Positions 16,129 through 23,545 of a stretch of 64,000 nucleotides of DNA are shown here, piece by piece. Below the pieces are notes generated by a model, which saw nothing but the letters and a program-made list of their open reading frames with translations, did no database searches and was not told where the DNA came from. A program made the position numbers and the translations under genes. The stretch is taken from contig NZ_NSET01000068.1 in assembly GCF_009192945.1 (NCBI RefSeq), forward strand, positions 1-64,000. Direction: 5' to 3'. Origin of the DNA: Xanthomonas maliensis (GTDB lineage Bacteria; Pseudomonadota; Gammaproteobacteria; Xanthomonadales; Xanthomonadaceae). How positions within the stretch are numbered: the first letter of the stretch is position 1; each line of letters opens with the position of its first letter.

Positions 16129-17891
16129 ACCAGAGCACCAATCGGACCAATCCGTTGCGCAAGCTCGGCCAGTTGCGCACCCTGTGGCCCTTCGTGCAGC
16201 GGCAACGCAATCTGTTCGTGGCCTGGTTGGTCGCGTTGGCGGTGTCGTCGGCCGCCACCTTGAGCATGCCGGCGGCGGTCAAGCAGATGATCGACCACGG
16301 CTTCAGTGGTGGCGCACAGATCAACCAGGCCTTCGTCCTGCTGTTCGCGGTCGCGGTGGTGCTCGCGCTGGCCACCGCCGCGCGGTTCTATTTCGTCGCC
16401 TTGCTGGGCGAAAAAGTCGTGGCCGATCTGCGCGAGCGCCTGTATGCCCATCTGATTAGCCTGGATCCCGGCTTCCACGACCGCAGCCGCAGCGGCGAAC
16501 TGGTCTCGCGGTTGTCGGCCGACAGCGAACTGCTGCGCGGGGTCATCGGCTCGACCATGTCGGTGGCCGTCCGCAGCTCGGTGACCGTGGTCGGCAGCCT
16601 GGTGATGCTGTTCGTCACCAGCCCACGTCTGGCCGGATTCACCCTGATCGGCATTCCGTTGGCGGTGCTGCCGATCGTGCTCGGCGCGCGGCGATTGCAG
16701 AAGATCTCCCGCGCCAGCCAGGACCGCGTCGCCGATGCCAATACGCTGGCGGCCGAAACCCTGGGCGCCGTGCGCACGGTGCAGGCGCATGGACGCGAGG
16801 GCTATGAGAGCGGTCGCTTCGGGCAGGCGCTGGCGGCGGCGGTCAAGACCGCGCGCAGGCGCATCCGCACCCAGGCGGCGGTGACCGCGGTGGCGATCAT
16901 GCTGGTGTTCGGCGCGATCGTGGCGGTGCTGTGGCTGGGCGCGCACGATGTGATCGACGGACGCATGACGCCAGGCACGCTGGGCCAGTTCGTGCTGTAC
17001 GCGTTGATCGGTGGCGGGTCGGTCGGCGCGCTGGCCGAAGTGTGGAACGAGCTGCAACGCGCGGGCGGCGGCATGGGCCGGATCAGCGAGCTGCTGGAGG
17101 AACGCTCGGCCATCGTCGCCCCAGCCCAGCCGCAATCGCTGCCGATCCCCGTGCGTGGCGAGATCCACTTCGACCAGGTCAGCTTCCATTATCCGCAGCG
17201 TCCGGGAACGCCCGCGCTGGATCGCTTCGACCTGCATGTGCAGCCTGGCGAAACCGTGGCGCTGGTCGGCCCGTCGGGAGCCGGCAAGAGCACGGTGCTG
17301 TCGCTGCTGTTGCGCTTTCACGATCCGCAGAGTGGCAGCGTCCGCATCGATGCGGCGGATCTGCGCACGCTCGACCCACCGCAATTGCGTGAGCACATTG
17401 CGCTGGTACCGCAGCAGCCGACCCTGTTCGCCGCCACCGCCGCCGACAACATCCGCTACGGCCGGCTGGATGCAAGCGACGCGCAGGTCGTGGCCGCAGC
17501 CACGGCCGCCGAGGCCGATGGATTCATTCGCGCACTGCCGGAGAGCTATGCCAGCGAACTGGGCGAACGCGGTGCGCGTCTGTCCGGCGGACAGCAGCAA
17601 CGGGTGGCGATCGCCCGCGCCCTGCTCAAGGATGCGCCGATCCTGTTGCTGGACGAGGCCACGAGCGCACTCGATGCACAGAGCGAGCGCGCGGTCCAGC
17701 AGGCGCTGGACCGGCTGGTCCAGGGACGCACCACCTTGGTCATCGCCCATCGCCTGGCCACCGTGCTCAAGGCCGACCGCATCGTGGTGATGGACGCGGG
17801 TCGTATCGTCGCGCAAGGCACGCATGCGCAGTTGCTCGCCGAGGGCGGCCTGTACGCCGAGCTCGCACGCCTGCAGTTCATCGACCAATGA
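16125..17891 (+). CDS. MsbA-like ABC exporter (fused membrane and ATPase domains)
   Basis: A 588-residue ABC half-transporter. Residues 1-320 hold the type-1 exporter membrane domain with six helices; residues 335-588 hold a complete nucleotide-binding domain: Walker A GPSGAGKST, Q-loop VPQQPTL, signature LSGGQQQRVAIARAL, Walker B ILLLDEATSALD and H-loop IAHRLAT. It probably works as a homodimer exporting lipids or hydrophobic compounds. The ATG overlaps the yigZ-like stop (ATGA). A longer in-frame reading back to 15681 overlaps the yigZ-like gene and is a shadow. Its intact ATPase motifs contrast with the exporter gene 1 kb downstream. Confidence 0.9.
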   Translation: MNQSTNRTNPLRKLGQLRTLWPFVQRQRNLFVAWLVALAVSSAATLSMPAAVKQMIDHGFSGGAQINQAFVLLFAVAVVLALATAARFYFVALLGEKVVADLRERLYAHLISLDPGFHDRSRSGELVSRLSADSELLRGVIGSTMSVAVRSSVTVVGSLVMLFVTSPRLAGFTLIGIPLAVLPIVLGARRLQKISRASQDRVADANTLAAETLGAVRTVQAHGREGYESGRFGQALAAAVKTARRRIRTQAAVTAVAIMLVFGAIVAVLWLGAHDVIDGRMTPGTLGQFVLYALIGGGSVGALAEVWNELQRAGGGMGRISELLEERSAIVAPAQPQSLPIPVRGEIHFDQVSFHYPQRPGTPALDRFDLHVQPGETVALVGPSGAGKSTVLSLLLRFHDPQSGSVRIDAADLRTLDPPQLREHIALVPQQPTLFAATAADNIRYGRLDASDAQVVAAATAAEADGFIRALPESYASELGERGARLSGGQQQRVAIARALLKDAPILLLDEATSALDAQSERAVQQALDRLVQGRTTLVIAHRLATVLKADRIVVMDAGRIVAQGTHAQLLAEGGLYAELARLQFIDQ

Positions 17892-17982
17892 ACCGCGACT
17901 GCGCGCTGCGCCAGTGCCCATGCCGGCCTCGCCGTAGGGTGTGCTTCGCGCTGCCCAGACACCACGACGAGCGCTGACCAGC

Positions 17983-18882
17983 ATGGCCCGGCCGCGCACC
18001 ACCCTGCGTCAGCTCAGCTATTTCATCGCCCTGGCCGACAGCGGCAGCTTCACCCGTGCCGCCGAGCAGATGGGCGTGTCGCAACCCTCGCTGTCGCAAC
18101 AGATCCGCGCGCTGGAGGCGATCATCGGCGCCCCATTGCTCGAGCGCGGCGGCCCGGTCGTATTGACGCCGCTGGGGCGCGACCTGCTGGAGCGCGCACG
18201 ACGCATCCTGCTGGAGGTCCGCGACCTCGAAGACCTACGCGCTACTGCCGCCGACACCCTGGTCGGCACGATCCGGCTCGGGGTCTCGCCAACCCTGGGC
18301 GCCTATCTGCTGCCCAGCCTGGTCGCACGCCTGCACCGCGATCACCCGGCACTGCGCGTGCATGTCCGCGAAGGCCTGCCCACCGCACTGAGCGCTGGCC
18401 TGGTCGACGGCGTGCACGATCTGATCCTGGCGCAATTGCCGATCAGCGGGCGCAACCTGCACAGCGAGCGCCTGTTCCGCGAACCGCTGTACGTGACCAT
18501 GGCCAGCGACCACCCCTTGCGCGATAGGACCGTGCTGACGCCGGCCGACCTGCACGGCGCCAACCTGCTGACCCTGATGCCGGAATACCGTCTGGCCGAA
18601 CAGGTCGCGGCAATCTCCGCCGAGGTGGGTGCCAGCGTGCTGCGTGATTACGAAGGCACCAGTCTGGATGCGATCCGGCAGATGGCCGGCATGGGCATGG
18701 GACTGGCGCTGCTGCCGGAGCTTTACGTCCGCCAGGAGATCCGCGCCGGTGACGACGTGGTGGCGCGGCCGGTCCAGGGAGGCCCCTACTATCGCGAGAT
18801 AGGACTGGTCTGGCGGCAGGGCGCCGGCCGCGCTCCCGCCTTCCAGCTAATCGCCGCCTTGCTGCGGGATGCGGCTGCATAG
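17983..18882 (+). CDS. LysR-family transcriptional regulator, OxyR-like subgroup
   Basis: A 299-residue regulator with an N-terminal winged helix-turn-helix (FTRAAEQMGVSQPSLSQQIR, about 22-41) and a C-terminal effector-binding domain (about 90-299). The wording around the helix-turn-helix resembles the OxyR/CynR branch. It has no cysteine at all, so it cannot be a thiol peroxide sensor like OxyR. It lies on the same strand, 90 bp before the exporter operon, with an OxyR-like operator overlapping its stop codon, so that operon is the likely target. Confidence 0.85.
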   Translation: MARPRTTLRQLSYFIALADSGSFTRAAEQMGVSQPSLSQQIRALEAIIGAPLLERGGPVVLTPLGRDLLERARRILLEVRDLEDLRATAADTLVGTIRLGVSPTLGAYLLPSLVARLHRDHPALRVHVREGLPTALSAGLVDGVHDLILAQLPISGRNLHSERLFREPLYVTMASDHPLRDRTVLTPADLHGANLLTLMPEYRLAEQVAAISAEVGASVLRDYEGTSLDAIRQMAGMGMGLALLPELYVRQEIRAGDDVVARPVQGGPYYREIGLVWRQGAGRAPAFQLIAALLRDAAA

Positions 18883-18893
18883 GTAAATCCTAT
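18879..18893 (+). promoter_or_regulatory. Candidate LysR/OxyR-type operator (ATAG-N7-CTAT)
   Basis: The 15-mer ATAGGTAAATCCTAT has the ATAG-N7-CTAT form of OxyR half-sites and includes a T-N11-A LysR box (18880-18892). Seven nt further, in the register expected for a second half-site, is ATAAGCATCGCTCGC, which keeps only the ATA part. It lies between the LysR gene and the exporter operon. Confidence 0.4.
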
Positions 18894-18972
18894 CGGCTGA
18901 ATAAGCATCGCTCGCTTGTTCCTGCTCCATCCGCAGGCACAATGCGCATTCAGGCTCATCGGTGGGAAGGCA

Positions 18973-20664
18973 ATGGCAGGACAGCGAATCGGTTGGCGCG
19001 AGGCCGCGGGATGGTTGGCCGAGATCATCGGCCCGGATATTCCCTATGTGCGGTTAGCCATCGTCTATGGCGTCGCCGTCAGCCTGCTGTCGCTGGCGAC
19101 GCCGATCTCGGTGCAACTGCTGATCAACAGCGTCACCAATACCGCCCTGCCGGCACCGCTGTGGACGCTGTCGGCTCTGCTGCTGGGATTGCTGCTGCTG
19201 GTGGCCGGGCTGAGCGCCATGCGCTTCTGGATGATGGCGTTGTTCGAGCGGCGGCTGTTCGCGCGCGTAGTCGCCGAGATCACCGTGCGCGCCGTGCACG
19301 CGCAGAACCCGTTCTTCGCCGACCATAGCCGCGGCGACCTGTTCAACCGCTACTTCGATGTGGTGGTGGTGCAGAAAGCGGTGCCCAGTCTGAGCATCGG
19401 TGCCTTTACCATCCTGCTGCAGTCGGCTGTCGGCCTGATCGTCACCAGCTTCTATCACCCGTTCTTCCTGGGCTTCAATGCCTTGCTGCTGCTGACCATC
19501 TTCGCGATCTGGATGATCTGGTCGCGTGGATCGATTCGCGCGGCGGTGGGCCTGAGCCAGGCCAAGCACGAGGCGGCGCACTGGCTGGAAAGCGTCGGCG
19601 GCTCGAATGGCTTCTACAAGTCCAGCCGCCATCTCGCGTTCGCCATGCAGCGCTCGGAAGCGGTCACCGCGACTTACGTCGAGCGGCATCGGCGCTATTT
19701 TCGCTACAGCTTCACCCAGACGGTCGCCTTCCTGTTGCTGTACGCCATCGCCAGTGCGGCGCTGCTGGCACTGGGCGGCAATTTGATCCTGCGCGGCGAG
19801 TTGTCGATCGGCCAGCTGGTCGCCGCCGAACTGATCCTCAGCGCGGTGTTCTACGGCATCTCGCAGCTGGGCTGGTATCTGGACACGCTCTACGACCTGA
19901 TCGCCAGTTGCGAGGAGTTGTCCGGCCTGTTCGCGATTCCGCAGGAACGCAGCGTCAACGCGCCCGGCCAGGCGCCACGCTCCAGCGAAGTGCGACTGGA
20001 AGGGGTGGAAATCGAAGGCGCGCGCTTCGACTTCGCCTTGGAGGCCGGCGAGCAGTTGGTCACCCTGGCCGATGGCGGCGCCGAGCGCCTGCTGGCGATG
20101 GTGCTCAAGCGCCACGTCATGCCCGAGCGTGGCCTGGTGATGGTTGGCGGCGCGGACCTGGCCACCTTCGACATGTACCTGCTGCGCTCGGAGGTCATGG
20201 TGCTCGACCGCCCCTCCATCGTGGAGGTGAGCATCCGCCAGTACCTGGCCATGGCCTCCTCGGAGGTGAACTCCGGTGCCATGCTCGGTGCGTTGGAAGC
20301 CGTCGGCCTGCGCGAACGCGTGGCCAGCCTGCCGCAGACGCTGGACACCCGCCTGGCCGCCTCGGGTTATCCGCTCTCGATCGGCGAAGTGATGGCGCTG
20401 AAGCTGGCCAATGCCTTGCTGGTCCGCCCGCGCGTGTTGATGCTTTCGCAGCTCTACGATCTGATCCCGACCGATCGCCTGGTCGCTGTCCTGCAGCGCC
20501 TCAAGCACGCAGGCACCACCACCTTGCTCTGCACCGGCAGACCCGAGGACATCACCCTGGACGGCTGGTTCCGCCTGGCACCGCAGCAACAACAGCGCTT
20601 CGCCTCGCGCGACGCGCTGGTCACCCTCACCCAGCAGGAGGCCGGTCATGCCGCACGCGACTGA
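18973..20664 (+). CDS. ABC-type half-exporter with a catalytically dead nucleotide-binding domain
   Basis: A 563-residue protein with the layout of a type-1 secretion ABC exporter: six predicted membrane helices (about 26-54, 63-90, 138-160, 162-183, 248-272, 280-303) and a C-terminal domain (335-563) that aligns with an ABC ATPase. Every catalytic motif is altered. Walker A is LADGGAERL (365-373) with no Gly-Lys-Ser/Thr, the Q-loop is LDRPS, the signature is LSIGE (469-472 region) instead of LSGGQ, Walker B is RVLMLSQ (D and E lost), and the H-loop His is absent (LLCTGRP). It overlaps the HlyD-type gene by 17 nt. ATG at 18973 follows GGAAGG closely. It should not hydrolyse ATP on its own. 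Confidence 0.85.
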   Translation: MAGQRIGWREAAGWLAEIIGPDIPYVRLAIVYGVAVSLLSLATPISVQLLINSVTNTALPAPLWTLSALLLGLLLLVAGLSAMRFWMMALFERRLFARVVAEITVRAVHAQNPFFADHSRGDLFNRYFDVVVVQKAVPSLSIGAFTILLQSAVGLIVTSFYHPFFLGFNALLLLTIFAIWMIWSRGSIRAAVGLSQAKHEAAHWLESVGGSNGFYKSSRHLAFAMQRSEAVTATYVERHRRYFRYSFTQTVAFLLLYAIASAALLALGGNLILRGELSIGQLVAAELILSAVFYGISQLGWYLDTLYDLIASCEELSGLFAIPQERSVNAPGQAPRSSEVRLEGVEIEGARFDFALEAGEQLVTLADGGAERLLAMVLKRHVMPERGLVMVGGADLATFDMYLLRSEVMVLDRPSIVEVSIRQYLAMASSEVNSGAMLGALEAVGLRERVASLPQTLDTRLAASGYPLSIGEVMALKLANALLVRPRVLMLSQLYDLIPTDRLVAVLQRLKHAGTTTLLCTGRPEDITLDGWFRLAPQQQQRFASRDALVTLTQQEAGHAARD

Positions 20665-21727
20665 TCGCCTGGCGCAGTTCCCGACGCTGGCGGCGATGCG
20701 CGTACCCAGCGCCGCCCGGGTGCTGGCCTGGATGCTCGCCATCGGCGTGCTCATTGCCGGTGCGATCCTTGCCTTCGTGCCCTGGGTGCAGACTGCCAGC
20801 GGCAAGGGCCAGGTCATCGCCCTGGATCCGGACGATCGTCAGCAGCAGGTGACTGCGCTGGTGCCGGGGCGGGTGGAGCGCTGGTATGTGCACGATGGTC
20901 AGCACGTGGAGGCGGGCGCACCAATCGCACGCGTCACCGATCTCGATCCGGATTTGCTGTCGCGTCTTGCCAGCGAACGCGCCCAGGTCGAAGCCGAGAT
21001 TGCCGCCATCCGTCAGTCCCGCACCGTTGCCGCCATCGATGTCGAGCGCACCCGCCAGTTGCTGGCCGAGGGTCTGGCCGGACGGCGTGACTTCGAGCTC
21101 ACCCAGATCAAGGTTGCCGAAGCCGATGCCAAGCTGGCCGAATCGCGCGCCAAGCTGACCCGTATCGACGTGCAGTTGAATCGGCAGTCCGCGCAGGTGG
21201 TGCGCGCCCCGCGCGATGGCCGGGTGCAGCAATTGAACACCACCGGCGGCAGCGCGCTGGTATCGCCCGGCACCGTGCTGGCAGTGATCGCACCGGAGCG
21301 TGTGGAGCGTGCGGTGGAGCTCTACATCGACGGCCGCGACGTGCCGTTGATCCGTGCCGGCCGTCCGGTGCGGCTGGAATTCGAGGGCTGGCCGGCGATC
21401 CAGTTCAGCGGCTGGCCGTCGGTGGCGCATGGCATGTTCGATGGCCGCGTGCGCATGATCGACCCCAACGGCGCGCCCGACGGCTTGTTCCGCATCCTGG
21501 TCGAACCGCAGCCGGGCAAGCCGTCCTGGCCGGGTCGTGAATTCGTCCGCCCTGGCGGTCGGGTCCGCGGCTGGGTACAGGGCGAGACGGTGCGCGTCGG
21601 CTATGAGTTGTGGCGCCAGTTGAACAACTTCCCGCTGGAGTTCGGCCAACGGCCGGCGGCGACCACGACGCCGGACAGCAAGGCCAAACCCGTCAAGACC
21701 GACGAAGACGAGACGAGCAAGAAATGA
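20648..21727 (+). CDS. HlyD-family membrane-fusion (adaptor) protein
   Basis: A 359-residue periplasmic adaptor: short cytoplasmic N-terminus, one membrane helix (about 24-46, VLAWMLAIGVLIAGAILAF), split lipoyl/barrel-sandwich domain (TALVPGRVERWYVHDGQHV near 70-90 and VVRAPRDGRVQQLNTTGG near 180-197), a coiled-coil hairpin between them (about 103-175), a beta-barrel (from about 215) and a Lys/Asp-rich tail. It would bridge the ABC-like inner-membrane protein and the TolC channel. Its ATG lies inside the end of the ABC-like gene and its stop overlaps the TolC gene start (ATGA), so all three are coupled. Confidence 0.88.
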   Translation: MPHATDRLAQFPTLAAMRVPSAARVLAWMLAIGVLIAGAILAFVPWVQTASGKGQVIALDPDDRQQQVTALVPGRVERWYVHDGQHVEAGAPIARVTDLDPDLLSRLASERAQVEAEIAAIRQSRTVAAIDVERTRQLLAEGLAGRRDFELTQIKVAEADAKLAESRAKLTRIDVQLNRQSAQVVRAPRDGRVQQLNTTGGSALVSPGTVLAVIAPERVERAVELYIDGRDVPLIRAGRPVRLEFEGWPAIQFSGWPSVAHGMFDGRVRMIDPNGAPDGLFRILVEPQPGKPSWPGREFVRPGGRVRGWVQGETVRVGYELWRQLNNFPLEFGQRPAATTTPDSKAKPVKTDEDETSKK

Positions 21728-23184
21728 TTCGCTGCACCGTGCTGGCGCTGTTGGCGCTCTGCCCTGCCCTGCTGCATGCCCAGGCCATGCCGGCCGCGGC
21801 ACGGCCGTCGTCGACGCAGCAGCCGCCCGGCGCGGTCGCTGCGGCACCGTTGACGCTGGAAGAAGTGCTGCAGGCATCGGCGCGTTCGGCCCCGCAGATC
21901 ATCGAAGCACTGGCCAAGGTCCGCCAGGCCGAGGGCAAGGGCCTGCAAGCCGATGGCGCGTTCGATACCGTGTTCGACGTCGATGGGCGCTCGCGGGCGG
22001 CCGGTTATTACGATGGCAGCGTGATCGACAGTCGTGCGACCCGACCGTTCGAAAACAACGGCGGCTATTTCTATGGTGCCTACCGCAATTCGCGCGGTGG
22101 CTTCCCGGTCTACGAGGACCAGGCCTACACCGACCGCGGCGGCGAAGTGAAAGTCGGCGCGCTGTTCGCCTTGTTGCGCGATCGCGTGGTGGACGAGCGC
22201 CGTACCCGCCGCAGCGTGGCCAGCGACGACATCGACGTGGCCCGCTACGAAGCGCAGATGGTCGCGGTCGGCGTGCAGCGGCGCGCCATCGATGCCTATC
22301 AGGCCTGGGTGGCCGCCGGTCTGCGCTATCGCGCCTACCAGGAGCTGTTGCAACTGGCCGAGCGCCGTCGCAGCGCCATCACCCGCCAGGTCTCCCTGGG
22401 CGCGCGACCGACCATCCTGCTGACCGAGAACGAGCAGAACCTGGTCCGTCGCCGGGCGCTGGTGGTGCGCGCCGAACAGGAGCTCGCCAGCGCCGCCAAT
22501 ACGCTCTCGCTGTATCTGCGCGATGCCGACGGCGCACCACTGATGGTGTCGGCCGAACGCTTGCCCGCCGACGCATCGGCGCTCGATGGACTGGCAGGCG
22601 CTGCCAGGATCGCCACCACGCCGGTACAGCGACCGGATTACCGCGCGGTACTGTCGCGCATCGACCAGGCCACTGCCCGTCTGATGCTGGCGCAGAACGA
22701 CTTGTCGCCGCGGCTGGATCTGCGCTTCGAGGTCAGCAAGGATCTTGGCCCACCGGGCGTGGGTGGACCCAACCGCTCGCAGACCGACGCGATCATCGGC
22801 TTTCGCTTCAGCGTGCCGCTGGAAAATCGCGCCGCCAAAGGGCGCGTTGCCGAGGCGCGTGCCGAAGTCGAAGCGCTGAACGAGCGCAGCCGCTACCTCC
22901 GCGACCAGATCGCGGTGGAGGTGGAATCGGTAGTCATCGCGATCAATGCCGCCGAGCGCCTGGCGAGCATTGCGCAGGAAGAGCGCGACCTGGCCGATCG
23001 TCTGGCAACCGCAGAGCGGCGCCGCTTCGAACTGGGGTCGGGCGATTTCTTCCTGGTCAACCAACGCGAAGAGACTGCCAACGATGCACGAGTGCGACTG
23101 ATCGATGCGCAGGCGCGCATCGCCTCGGCACGTGCCGAACTCGCCGCCGCCACTGCCGATCGCGATGCCTTGCGGCTGCAGTAA
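21724..23184 (+). CDS. TolC-family outer-membrane channel protein
   Basis: A 486-residue outer-membrane efflux protein. The signal peptide is at residues 1-19 (MIRCTVLALLALCPALLHAQ). Two OEP repeats follow with long helical segments; LTLEEVLQASARSAPQIIEA near 40 marks the first, and alternating Ala/Arg/Glu-rich helices around 175-260 and 365-470 form the tunnel. The region at 75-130 is unusually rich in Tyr, Arg and Asn (YFYGAYRNSRGGFPVYED). The ATG overlaps the adaptor gene stop by 4 nt. It completes a three-part export machine spanning both membranes. Confidence 0.86.
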   Translation: MIRCTVLALLALCPALLHAQAMPAAARPSSTQQPPGAVAAAPLTLEEVLQASARSAPQIIEALAKVRQAEGKGLQADGAFDTVFDVDGRSRAAGYYDGSVIDSRATRPFENNGGYFYGAYRNSRGGFPVYEDQAYTDRGGEVKVGALFALLRDRVVDERRTRRSVASDDIDVARYEAQMVAVGVQRRAIDAYQAWVAAGLRYRAYQELLQLAERRRSAITRQVSLGARPTILLTENEQNLVRRRALVVRAEQELASAANTLSLYLRDADGAPLMVSAERLPADASALDGLAGAARIATTPVQRPDYRAVLSRIDQATARLMLAQNDLSPRLDLRFEVSKDLGPPGVGGPNRSQTDAIIGFRFSVPLENRAAKGRVAEARAEVEALNERSRYLRDQIAVEVESVVIAINAAERLASIAQEERDLADRLATAERRRFELGSGDFFLVNQREETANDARVRLIDAQARIASARAELAAATADRDALRLQ

Positions 23185-23350
23185 GGTCGCGCCTGCTGTG
23201 TAGATCCGGCCACTGCGGCCCGAGCGCAGGGCGCACGGGCGCACGATGACACCCTGGTAACACCACGCTGCGCATGCTCGCCCTGCCGGTGCAAGCCGGC
23301 GGCGCGCTCCAGACAGACGCGACCGCAATCTTGAGACTCGGAGGTGCACG

Positions 23351-23545
23351 ATGTCATTTCGTCAGTTCCCGGCGGTCGACGCCGACGGTGAGTCCTACGT
23401 CATCATCGAATTCCGCGATAGCGCAGGACGCCAGGCCGATACCGAGGCCACCCCGCGTTACGAGTTGCCGGATGGACGCCATCTGCGACGACAGGGGCAG
23501 CGTTTCGTCACCGAAGGCGGCGAACTGACCTTGTCCATGCCGTAG
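23351..23545 (+). CDS. Small hypothetical protein, 64 residues
   Basis: A short gene with a strong ribosome binding site (GGAGGTG, 7 nt before ATG 23351). The product is soluble, polar, and predicted to be beta-rich (SYVIIEFRDSAGRQ, YELPDGRHLRRQGQRF, GELTLSMP), with no signal peptide and no cysteine. I do not recognise a family. It lies 166 bp after the TolC-family gene on the same strand, so it may or may not belong to that operon. Confidence 0.6.
   Translation: MSFRQFPAVDADGESYVIIEFRDSAGRQADTEATPRYELPDGRHLRRQGQRFVTEGGELTLSMP

Follow-up and report, generated by a model that had tools for sequence, protein, structure and literature searches.

The 64,000-nucleotide stretch of Xanthomonas maliensis DNA analyzed here (contig NZ_NSET01000068.1, positions 1 to 64,000 of the forward strand; hereafter, the window) encodes a 563-aa protein (18973..20664, plus strand) that is predicted to adopt the fold of an ATP-binding cassette (ABC) exporter and has lost its ATPase motifs, as judged from its open reading frame (ORF), profile searches, alignment, and an AlphaFold2 (AF2) model. 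The frame runs uninterrupted from an ATG at 18973 to a stop codon at 20662-20664 and is the first of three overlapping genes. It shares 17 nt with the gene of a HlyD-like periplasmic adaptor of 359 aa (20648..21727, plus strand; Pfam and neighbor survey), the ORF of which starts inside the ABC gene at 20648. A TolC-like outer membrane efflux protein follows (21724..23184, plus strand), its ATG at 21724 overlapping the HlyD stop codon by 4 nt (ATGA). The intact frame coupled to HlyD- and TolC-type genes that the initial annotation had described was therefore confirmed. Directly upstream of the operon, 90 nt from the ABC start, ends a gene for a LysR-type regulator (17941..18882, plus strand; Pfam and neighbor survey), and this gene separates the operon from an MsbA-like gene with intact motifs, which ends at 17891, 1,081 nt upstream of the ABC gene. 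The ABC protein is single-copy in the genome; five further matches were 20-29% identical and of partial length only. A scan of 18800-23400 for promoters and terminators revealed nothing above chance.

The window protein matched the Pfam family ABC_membrane with 28.3 bits (cut-off 28) and ABC_tran with 17.6 bits, under the cut-off of 25; at E ≤ 1, it matched no further Pfam family and no SbmA/BacA profile. The AF2 model, a monomer built from the family alignment, had a predicted local distance difference test score (pLDDT) of 87.8 and a full predicted ABC-exporter fold (type IV), with a six-helix membrane domain followed by a nucleotide-binding domain (NBD) fold. The membrane domain, comprising six long helices, was assigned to residues 8-320 (18994..19932, plus strand) from the AF2 secondary structure and conservation. 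The NBD-like domain, an ABC ATPase fold without catalytic motifs, was assigned to residues 340-543 (19990..20601, plus strand) from alignment, AF2, and Foldseek, and between residues 341 and 550 its pLDDT, averaged over ten residues at a time, was 89-96. The first Foldseek matches of the model were TmrAB and HlyB. The predicted structure is in line with the earlier proposal that the membrane domain and the overall length of the ABC domain are preserved, and the C-terminal domain matched ABC NBDs rather than another fold.

The remnants of five motifs were located by alignment, all on the plus strand: the former Walker A (LADGGAERL, residues 365-373, 20065..20091), Q-loop (LDRPSI, 20203..20220), signature (PLSIGE, 20371..20388), Walker B (VLMLSQ, 20434..20451), and H-loop (LLCTGR, 20524..20541). 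The three positions that had been named by eye (LADGGAERL, LSIGE, and RVLMLSQ) were correct. The accompanying claim that every motif was destroyed holds for Walker A, the Q-loop, Walker B, and the H-loop, and needs correction for the signature, which is lost in part only, its L, S, and second G still being there. As a set, the Walker A, Q-loop, signature, Walker B, and H-loop of a functional ABC transporter are not present. The signature Ser of the window protein is replaced by Trp in the other 54 of the 55 Xanthomonas-group loci tallied, among which some genomes were entered twice, from two collections.

The same loss was observed throughout the relatives of the protein. The main clade was represented by a thinned set of 52 sequences. 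Of these, 0/52 have the Walker A Lys, the Q-loop Gln, or the Walker B Asp and 1/52 has the H-loop His, while all 23 canonical ABC proteins used as controls hold the four residues. The Walker A Lys position is occupied by Glu (34), Gln (10), or Asp (5) and never by Lys. The signature Gln is changed to Glu in 49/52 sequences, the first signature Gly is missing in 52/52, and the D-loop Asp is changed to Pro in 45/52. A broader set of 145 family proteins was distinct but unthinned, and close species therefore weigh more in its counts. The Walker A Lys is combined with the signature Ser, the Walker B Asp and Glu, and the H-loop His in only two of these proteins. The Lys occurs in 25 of them and the Q-loop Gln in one (without the Walker A Lys), and 106 retain none of these six residues or the signature Ser alone.

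Graded states were present in a later alignment, from Walker A only, through Walker A plus the Walker B Asp, to two near-intact members (L223 and L224). The latter have Walker A, LSLGE as their signature, LDE, and the H-loop His but no Q-loop Gln, and are candidates for a near-ancestral state. In a tree based on the membrane domain only (59 family rows and 23 canonical proteins, without the members found later in the orders of genomes G309 and G767), the family formed one clade with moderate support (ultrafast bootstrap 76). Forms keeping Walker A were placed near the base of the family. The clade further contained the fully motif-less main clade and, as another lineage, L051-L054, in which the ATPase motifs are lost in part or whole. 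This topology suggests that the motifs were lost repeatedly within the family. The motif loss is, from these alignments, old and common to the family and no recent event in the window strain.

Orthologues were detected in 37 of the 61 genomes of the relatives search, comprising all 35 Xanthomonas genomes (own included) and two of the 26 others. The frame was unsplit in 32/35 Xanthomonas genomes. Split ABC copies were found in the other three (L038, L039, and L040/L093), one of them also with in-frame stops, and draft errors are possible; these broken or partial loci were left out of the motif, selection, and tree sets and kept among the 189 loci of the neighbor survey. In the scan of named genomes, the best 80 of 167 confirmed relatives were 58-84% identical and belonged to Xanthomonas, Sphingomonas, Sphingobium, Novosphingobium, Caulobacter, and other sphingomonads. 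The class-wide search matched 13/369 genomes (own included) at E ≤ 1e-45. Phylum-wide, 31/398 genomes matched at E ≤ 1e-40, 11 of them (own included) above 450 bits and 20 at 141-159 bits; all 19 of the low-scoring matches that were fetched as loci carry canonical motifs. The family was also present in 42/121 genomes of the order of G309 and in 4/120 of that of G767. A Walker A-keeping member (L177, ORF from about 5467) lies on a plasmid of Persicobacter psychrovividus (Bacteroidota). By these searches, the family spans Xanthomonas, sphingomonads, Caulobacter, other Proteobacteria, and one Bacteroidota plasmid. In the plasmid collection, eight of the 16 matching records annotate the gene, three as 'ABC transporter transmembrane domain-containing protein' and five as 'ABC transporter ATP-binding protein', so that the more frequent of the two names misleads.

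Purifying selection acts on both domains in Xanthomonas, as estimated from the ratio of nonsynonymous to synonymous substitution rates (dN/dS): its median over 1,460 pairs was 0.081 for the membrane domain and 0.095 for the NBD. The values for the combined sphingomonads and Caulobacter (0.21 for the membrane domain and 0.38 for the NBD) were set aside because many synonymous sites were near saturation. Together with the unsplit frames, these values sustain the earlier view that the gene is not a pseudogene; the conserved motif loss across the clade contradicts a decay confined to the window strain. The interpretation as a decaying relic on its way to loss, to which the three split Xanthomonas frames might point, is largely contradicted by the selection data and the occurrence of motif loss across classes, and we give it hardly any credence. 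The NBD itself is more than a plain relic because of its low dN/dS, its high pLDDT means, and its own conserved residues (the Glu in 49/52 and the Pro in 45/52 sequences noted above).

The usual conservation pattern, with the NBD above the membrane domain, is reversed in the aligned family. The mean top-residue frequency over 57 family rows was 0.70 in the membrane domain and 0.57 in the NBD, against 0.61 and 0.71 in the 23 canonical ABC proteins. Eight columns (P44, Y161, W204, G280, Q281, A284, E286, and Y307) were invariant in 145/145 family proteins, and every one of them lies in the membrane domain, the NBD having no such column; P44 is likewise invariant in the 23 controls, and H162 occurs in 141/145 family proteins. 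E286 (codon 19828..19830, plus strand) is the sole fully invariant acidic residue. It is situated eight residues into the last membrane helix (TM6; QLVAAE), within GQLVAAELI, at a position held by Asn in 78% of the canonical proteins. The other conserved acids of the membrane domain are D129 (137/145), E206 (134/145), and E325 (141/145), the last being Glu in canonical ABC proteins also.

The operon structure is conserved with the protein. Among the 189 family loci surveyed, which are partly redundant, a HlyD gene lies directly downstream in 188, the exception being a frameshifted fragment, and a TolC gene is present in 95 of the 97 loci with enough sequence (all but L145 and L146). In Novosphingobium aromaticivorans DSM 12444, the three genes are SARO_RS19820, SARO_RS19815, and SARO_RS19810. 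A LysR gene precedes the operon in 21/24 Xanthomonas loci, by reading of the gene layout, and in 15 Sphingomonas loci the operon is preceded by a gene for a LysR protein 71-79% identical to that of the window. The ABC protein of the window is about 80% identical to those of some Sphingomonas, and no match to the motif-less protein was found in genomes of the same taxonomic family outside the genus among those sampled in the relatives, class-wide, and phylum-wide searches. For these two reasons, transfer of the LysR-ABC-HlyD-TolC cassette between Xanthomonas and Sphingomonas, in either direction, is suggested. Across the gene neighborhoods compared, no fourth gene was universal beside the operon, no conserved substrate gene adjoined it, and no other transporter gene was conserved next to it. 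The MsbA-like gene is upstream only in Xanthomonas; outside this genus, the operon has no conserved ABC neighbor, and other ABC genes occur nearby only in the single loci L073, L101, L129, L139, and L143.

The nearest curated profiles were those of type I secretion system (T1SS) ABC proteins of the LssB/HlyB type, TIGR03375 (84.2 bits) and TIGR01846 (83.5 bits), with scores far under the respective cut-offs of 693.1 and 725.55. The window protein shares with this type the predicted fold (HlyB, 8dck) and the HlyD and TolC operon partners, and differs in lacking the ATPase motifs, an N-terminal extension, and a conserved substrate gene beside the operon. An ABC protein, a HlyD-type adaptor, and a TolC-type duct are encoded together as in a T1SS, but no curated T1SS ABC profile was matched above its cut-off. 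From its sequence, the system is an ABC-fold, T1SS-like tripartite one, the core of which has lost the ATPase motifs across a clade. According to a secretion-system survey of X. arboricola (PMC12448352), the pv. juglandis strains that it covered have no T1SS of the studied classes, whereas the operon was present in a pv. juglandis genome analyzed here (L057). No description of such a family was found in open-licence PubMed Central papers, a scope that does not show absence from print. AtrB/AtrD of the sphingan cluster are a possible named relative.

By definition, ABC exporters are considered to run on ATP. The ABC protein itself very probably does not use ATP. HlyD-type and TolC-type partners serve proton-driven cores in other tripartite pumps: in those of the EmrAB-TolC type, an adaptor and TolC surround a proton-driven inner-membrane core of the major facilitator superfamily (MFS). 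These pumps resemble the present system in the adaptor and TolC and differ in having an MFS core instead of an ABC fold. The cores of tripartite pumps are listed as ABC, resistance-nodulation-division, and MFS in the abstract of a survey (PMC8277102). A proton-driven transporter on an ABC fold is provided by SbmA, which carries a ladder of glutamates and the presumed ancestor of which is an ABC transporter, the NBD having since been lost (PMC13316013). Like SbmA/BacA (SbmA-like peptide transporters, SLiPTs), the window protein has an ABC-exporter membrane fold without ATPase and an acidic residue in the membrane domain. It differs in its NBD fold and exporter partners, SLiPTs being described in that source as having lost the NBD and coupling helices and SbmA as importing peptides. 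SbmA was not among the matches listed in the structural searches with the window model.

We propose that the operon encodes a tripartite trans-envelope exporter with a homodimer of the ABC-exporter-fold protein as its inner-membrane core. This core would not hydrolyze ATP and would probably not bind it. Its NBD-like domains would serve as a folded, selected cytoplasmic module that clamps the dimer or gates it. Transport would fall to the membrane domain, working with the TolC duct and the HlyD adaptor. The drive would most likely be the proton gradient, coupled as in SbmA by membrane-domain residues that can be protonated, foremost E286 of TM6. A proton-coupled exporter is favored because SbmA runs an ABC fold on protons and because partners of the HlyD and TolC types serve proton-driven cores. 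The substrate is probably a small molecule acting on the LysR regulator. The family, its motif loss, breadth, operon, and selection were shown from sequence and both domain folds are predicted, while we infer the homodimer, export direction, proton drive, and substrate class. The statement as a whole, namely a tripartite exporter with an ABC-fold core lacking ATPase, most likely proton-coupled and using the NBD as an ATP-free clamp, is in our judgment evenly balanced between being right and wrong. The evolutionary version, a widespread family derived from an ABC exporter by conversion to secondary, proton-coupled transport, with the NBD turned into an ATP-free clamp, HlyD and TolC kept, and intermediates of the conversion living in relatives, is put forward more tentatively and falls somewhat short of an even chance.

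Several observations weigh against this proposal. E286 also occurs in the near-intact L223 and L224; it therefore marks the family as a whole and did not come in as a substitute upon ATPase loss. No glutamate ladder was seen beyond E286, versus six glutamates listed for SbmA, and the NBD is kept here, whereas transporters of the SbmA type lost it along with the coupling helices (PMC13316013). Since SbmA imports, an exporter would need antiport. The 25 of 145 relatives with the Walker A Lys may still bind ATP, and partner ABC halves may be encoded elsewhere in carriers with many ABC genes. In the distant lineage of L145 and L146, the motif-less ABC and HlyD genes are followed by no TolC gene.

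The initial annotation had already called for another power source, namely a heterodimer, a proton- or substrate-driven mechanism, or a scaffold role; in the present data, proton drive is favored, a heterodimer is disfavored, and the scaffold survives as a minor candidate. As a scaffold, gate, or sensor, the motif-less protein would anchor HlyD and TolC or open a channel for substrates pushed by another transporter. We consider this unlikely. It would account for the loss of the ATPase motifs with retention of the adaptor and duct and for the tight linkage to HlyD, but conservation is highest in the membrane domain, where all eight invariant columns lie, which a pure anchor would hardly require, and the operon has no other conserved transporter gene beside it. 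Facilitated efflux, in which the membrane domain would cycle without energy coupling and the substrate would follow its own gradient into the HlyD-TolC duct, is also rather unlikely in our view. In its favor, the operon shows no source of energy and the LysR adjacency suggests metabolite control, but the invariant TM6 glutamate would have no obvious need in a passive carrier.

A heterodimer, with ATP hydrolysis supplied by the MsbA-like neighbor or by an active half-transporter from another locus, is in our estimate quite improbable. Heterodimeric ABC exporters in which one site is degenerate form an established class, are among the nearest structural matches (TmrAB being the first), and keep their degenerate NBD under selection; according to PMC7756269, however, one of their sites stays catalytic and the degenerate site usually holds ATP, whereas all the motifs are affected here, the Walker A Lys and an intact signature among them. 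The Gln to Glu change and the missing first Gly leave no intact signature for a partner, and, by alignment, the motif-less subunit cannot complete either composite site. The operon contains no gene for a second half carrying a consensus site, and, as described above, no ABC gene is conserved beside it outside Xanthomonas. The MsbA-like neighbor, suggested earlier as a possible partner, was not supported: besides its restriction to Xanthomonas loci, a close homologue (76-82% identity) was found in 8/8 genomes of the same taxonomic family in which the motif-less protein was not found.

Across the 13 carrier genomes counted, from 3 to 14 ABC_membrane matches were found per genome, and the other ABC exporters were typed in three (G353, G054, and G445). 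In G353, a single contig of 2.1 Mb from a distant subgroup, the other matches were only MsbA, CydD, and CydC. In G054, they were MsbA and two MsbA_rel types, and in G445, three other types, nearest to MsbA_rel, MsbA, and HepA and under their cut-offs. No shared dedicated ABC partner was seen in these three carriers. Carriers with more ABC exporters, such as G248 of the same genus as G353 (6 matches) and the window genome (14 matches, 13 besides the motif-less protein, one of them under the cut-off), leave room for a partner half.

Such a clade, with an ABC fold, export partners, and no ATPase motifs, is a natural experiment on the roles of the NBD besides ATP hydrolysis. It also bears on how a primary pump might become a secondary one, as the stages of ATPase loss can be compared because the NBD is still present, unlike in SbmA.

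Other genes recurred near the operon in a few loci. Genes for the DabB/DabA inorganic carbon transporter adjoin it in three related Sphingomonas loci (L120:2709-6684, L128, and L132) and in a distant one (L144:5933-8166). As a general partner, the bicarbonate transporter DabAB was rejected, DabA being found in only 4 of the 16 carrier genomes searched. Repeated neighbors in Caulobacter and sphingomonad loci (L095:3487-5135, L098, L108, and L124) are a FecR-like gene and one for a sigma-70-type factor.
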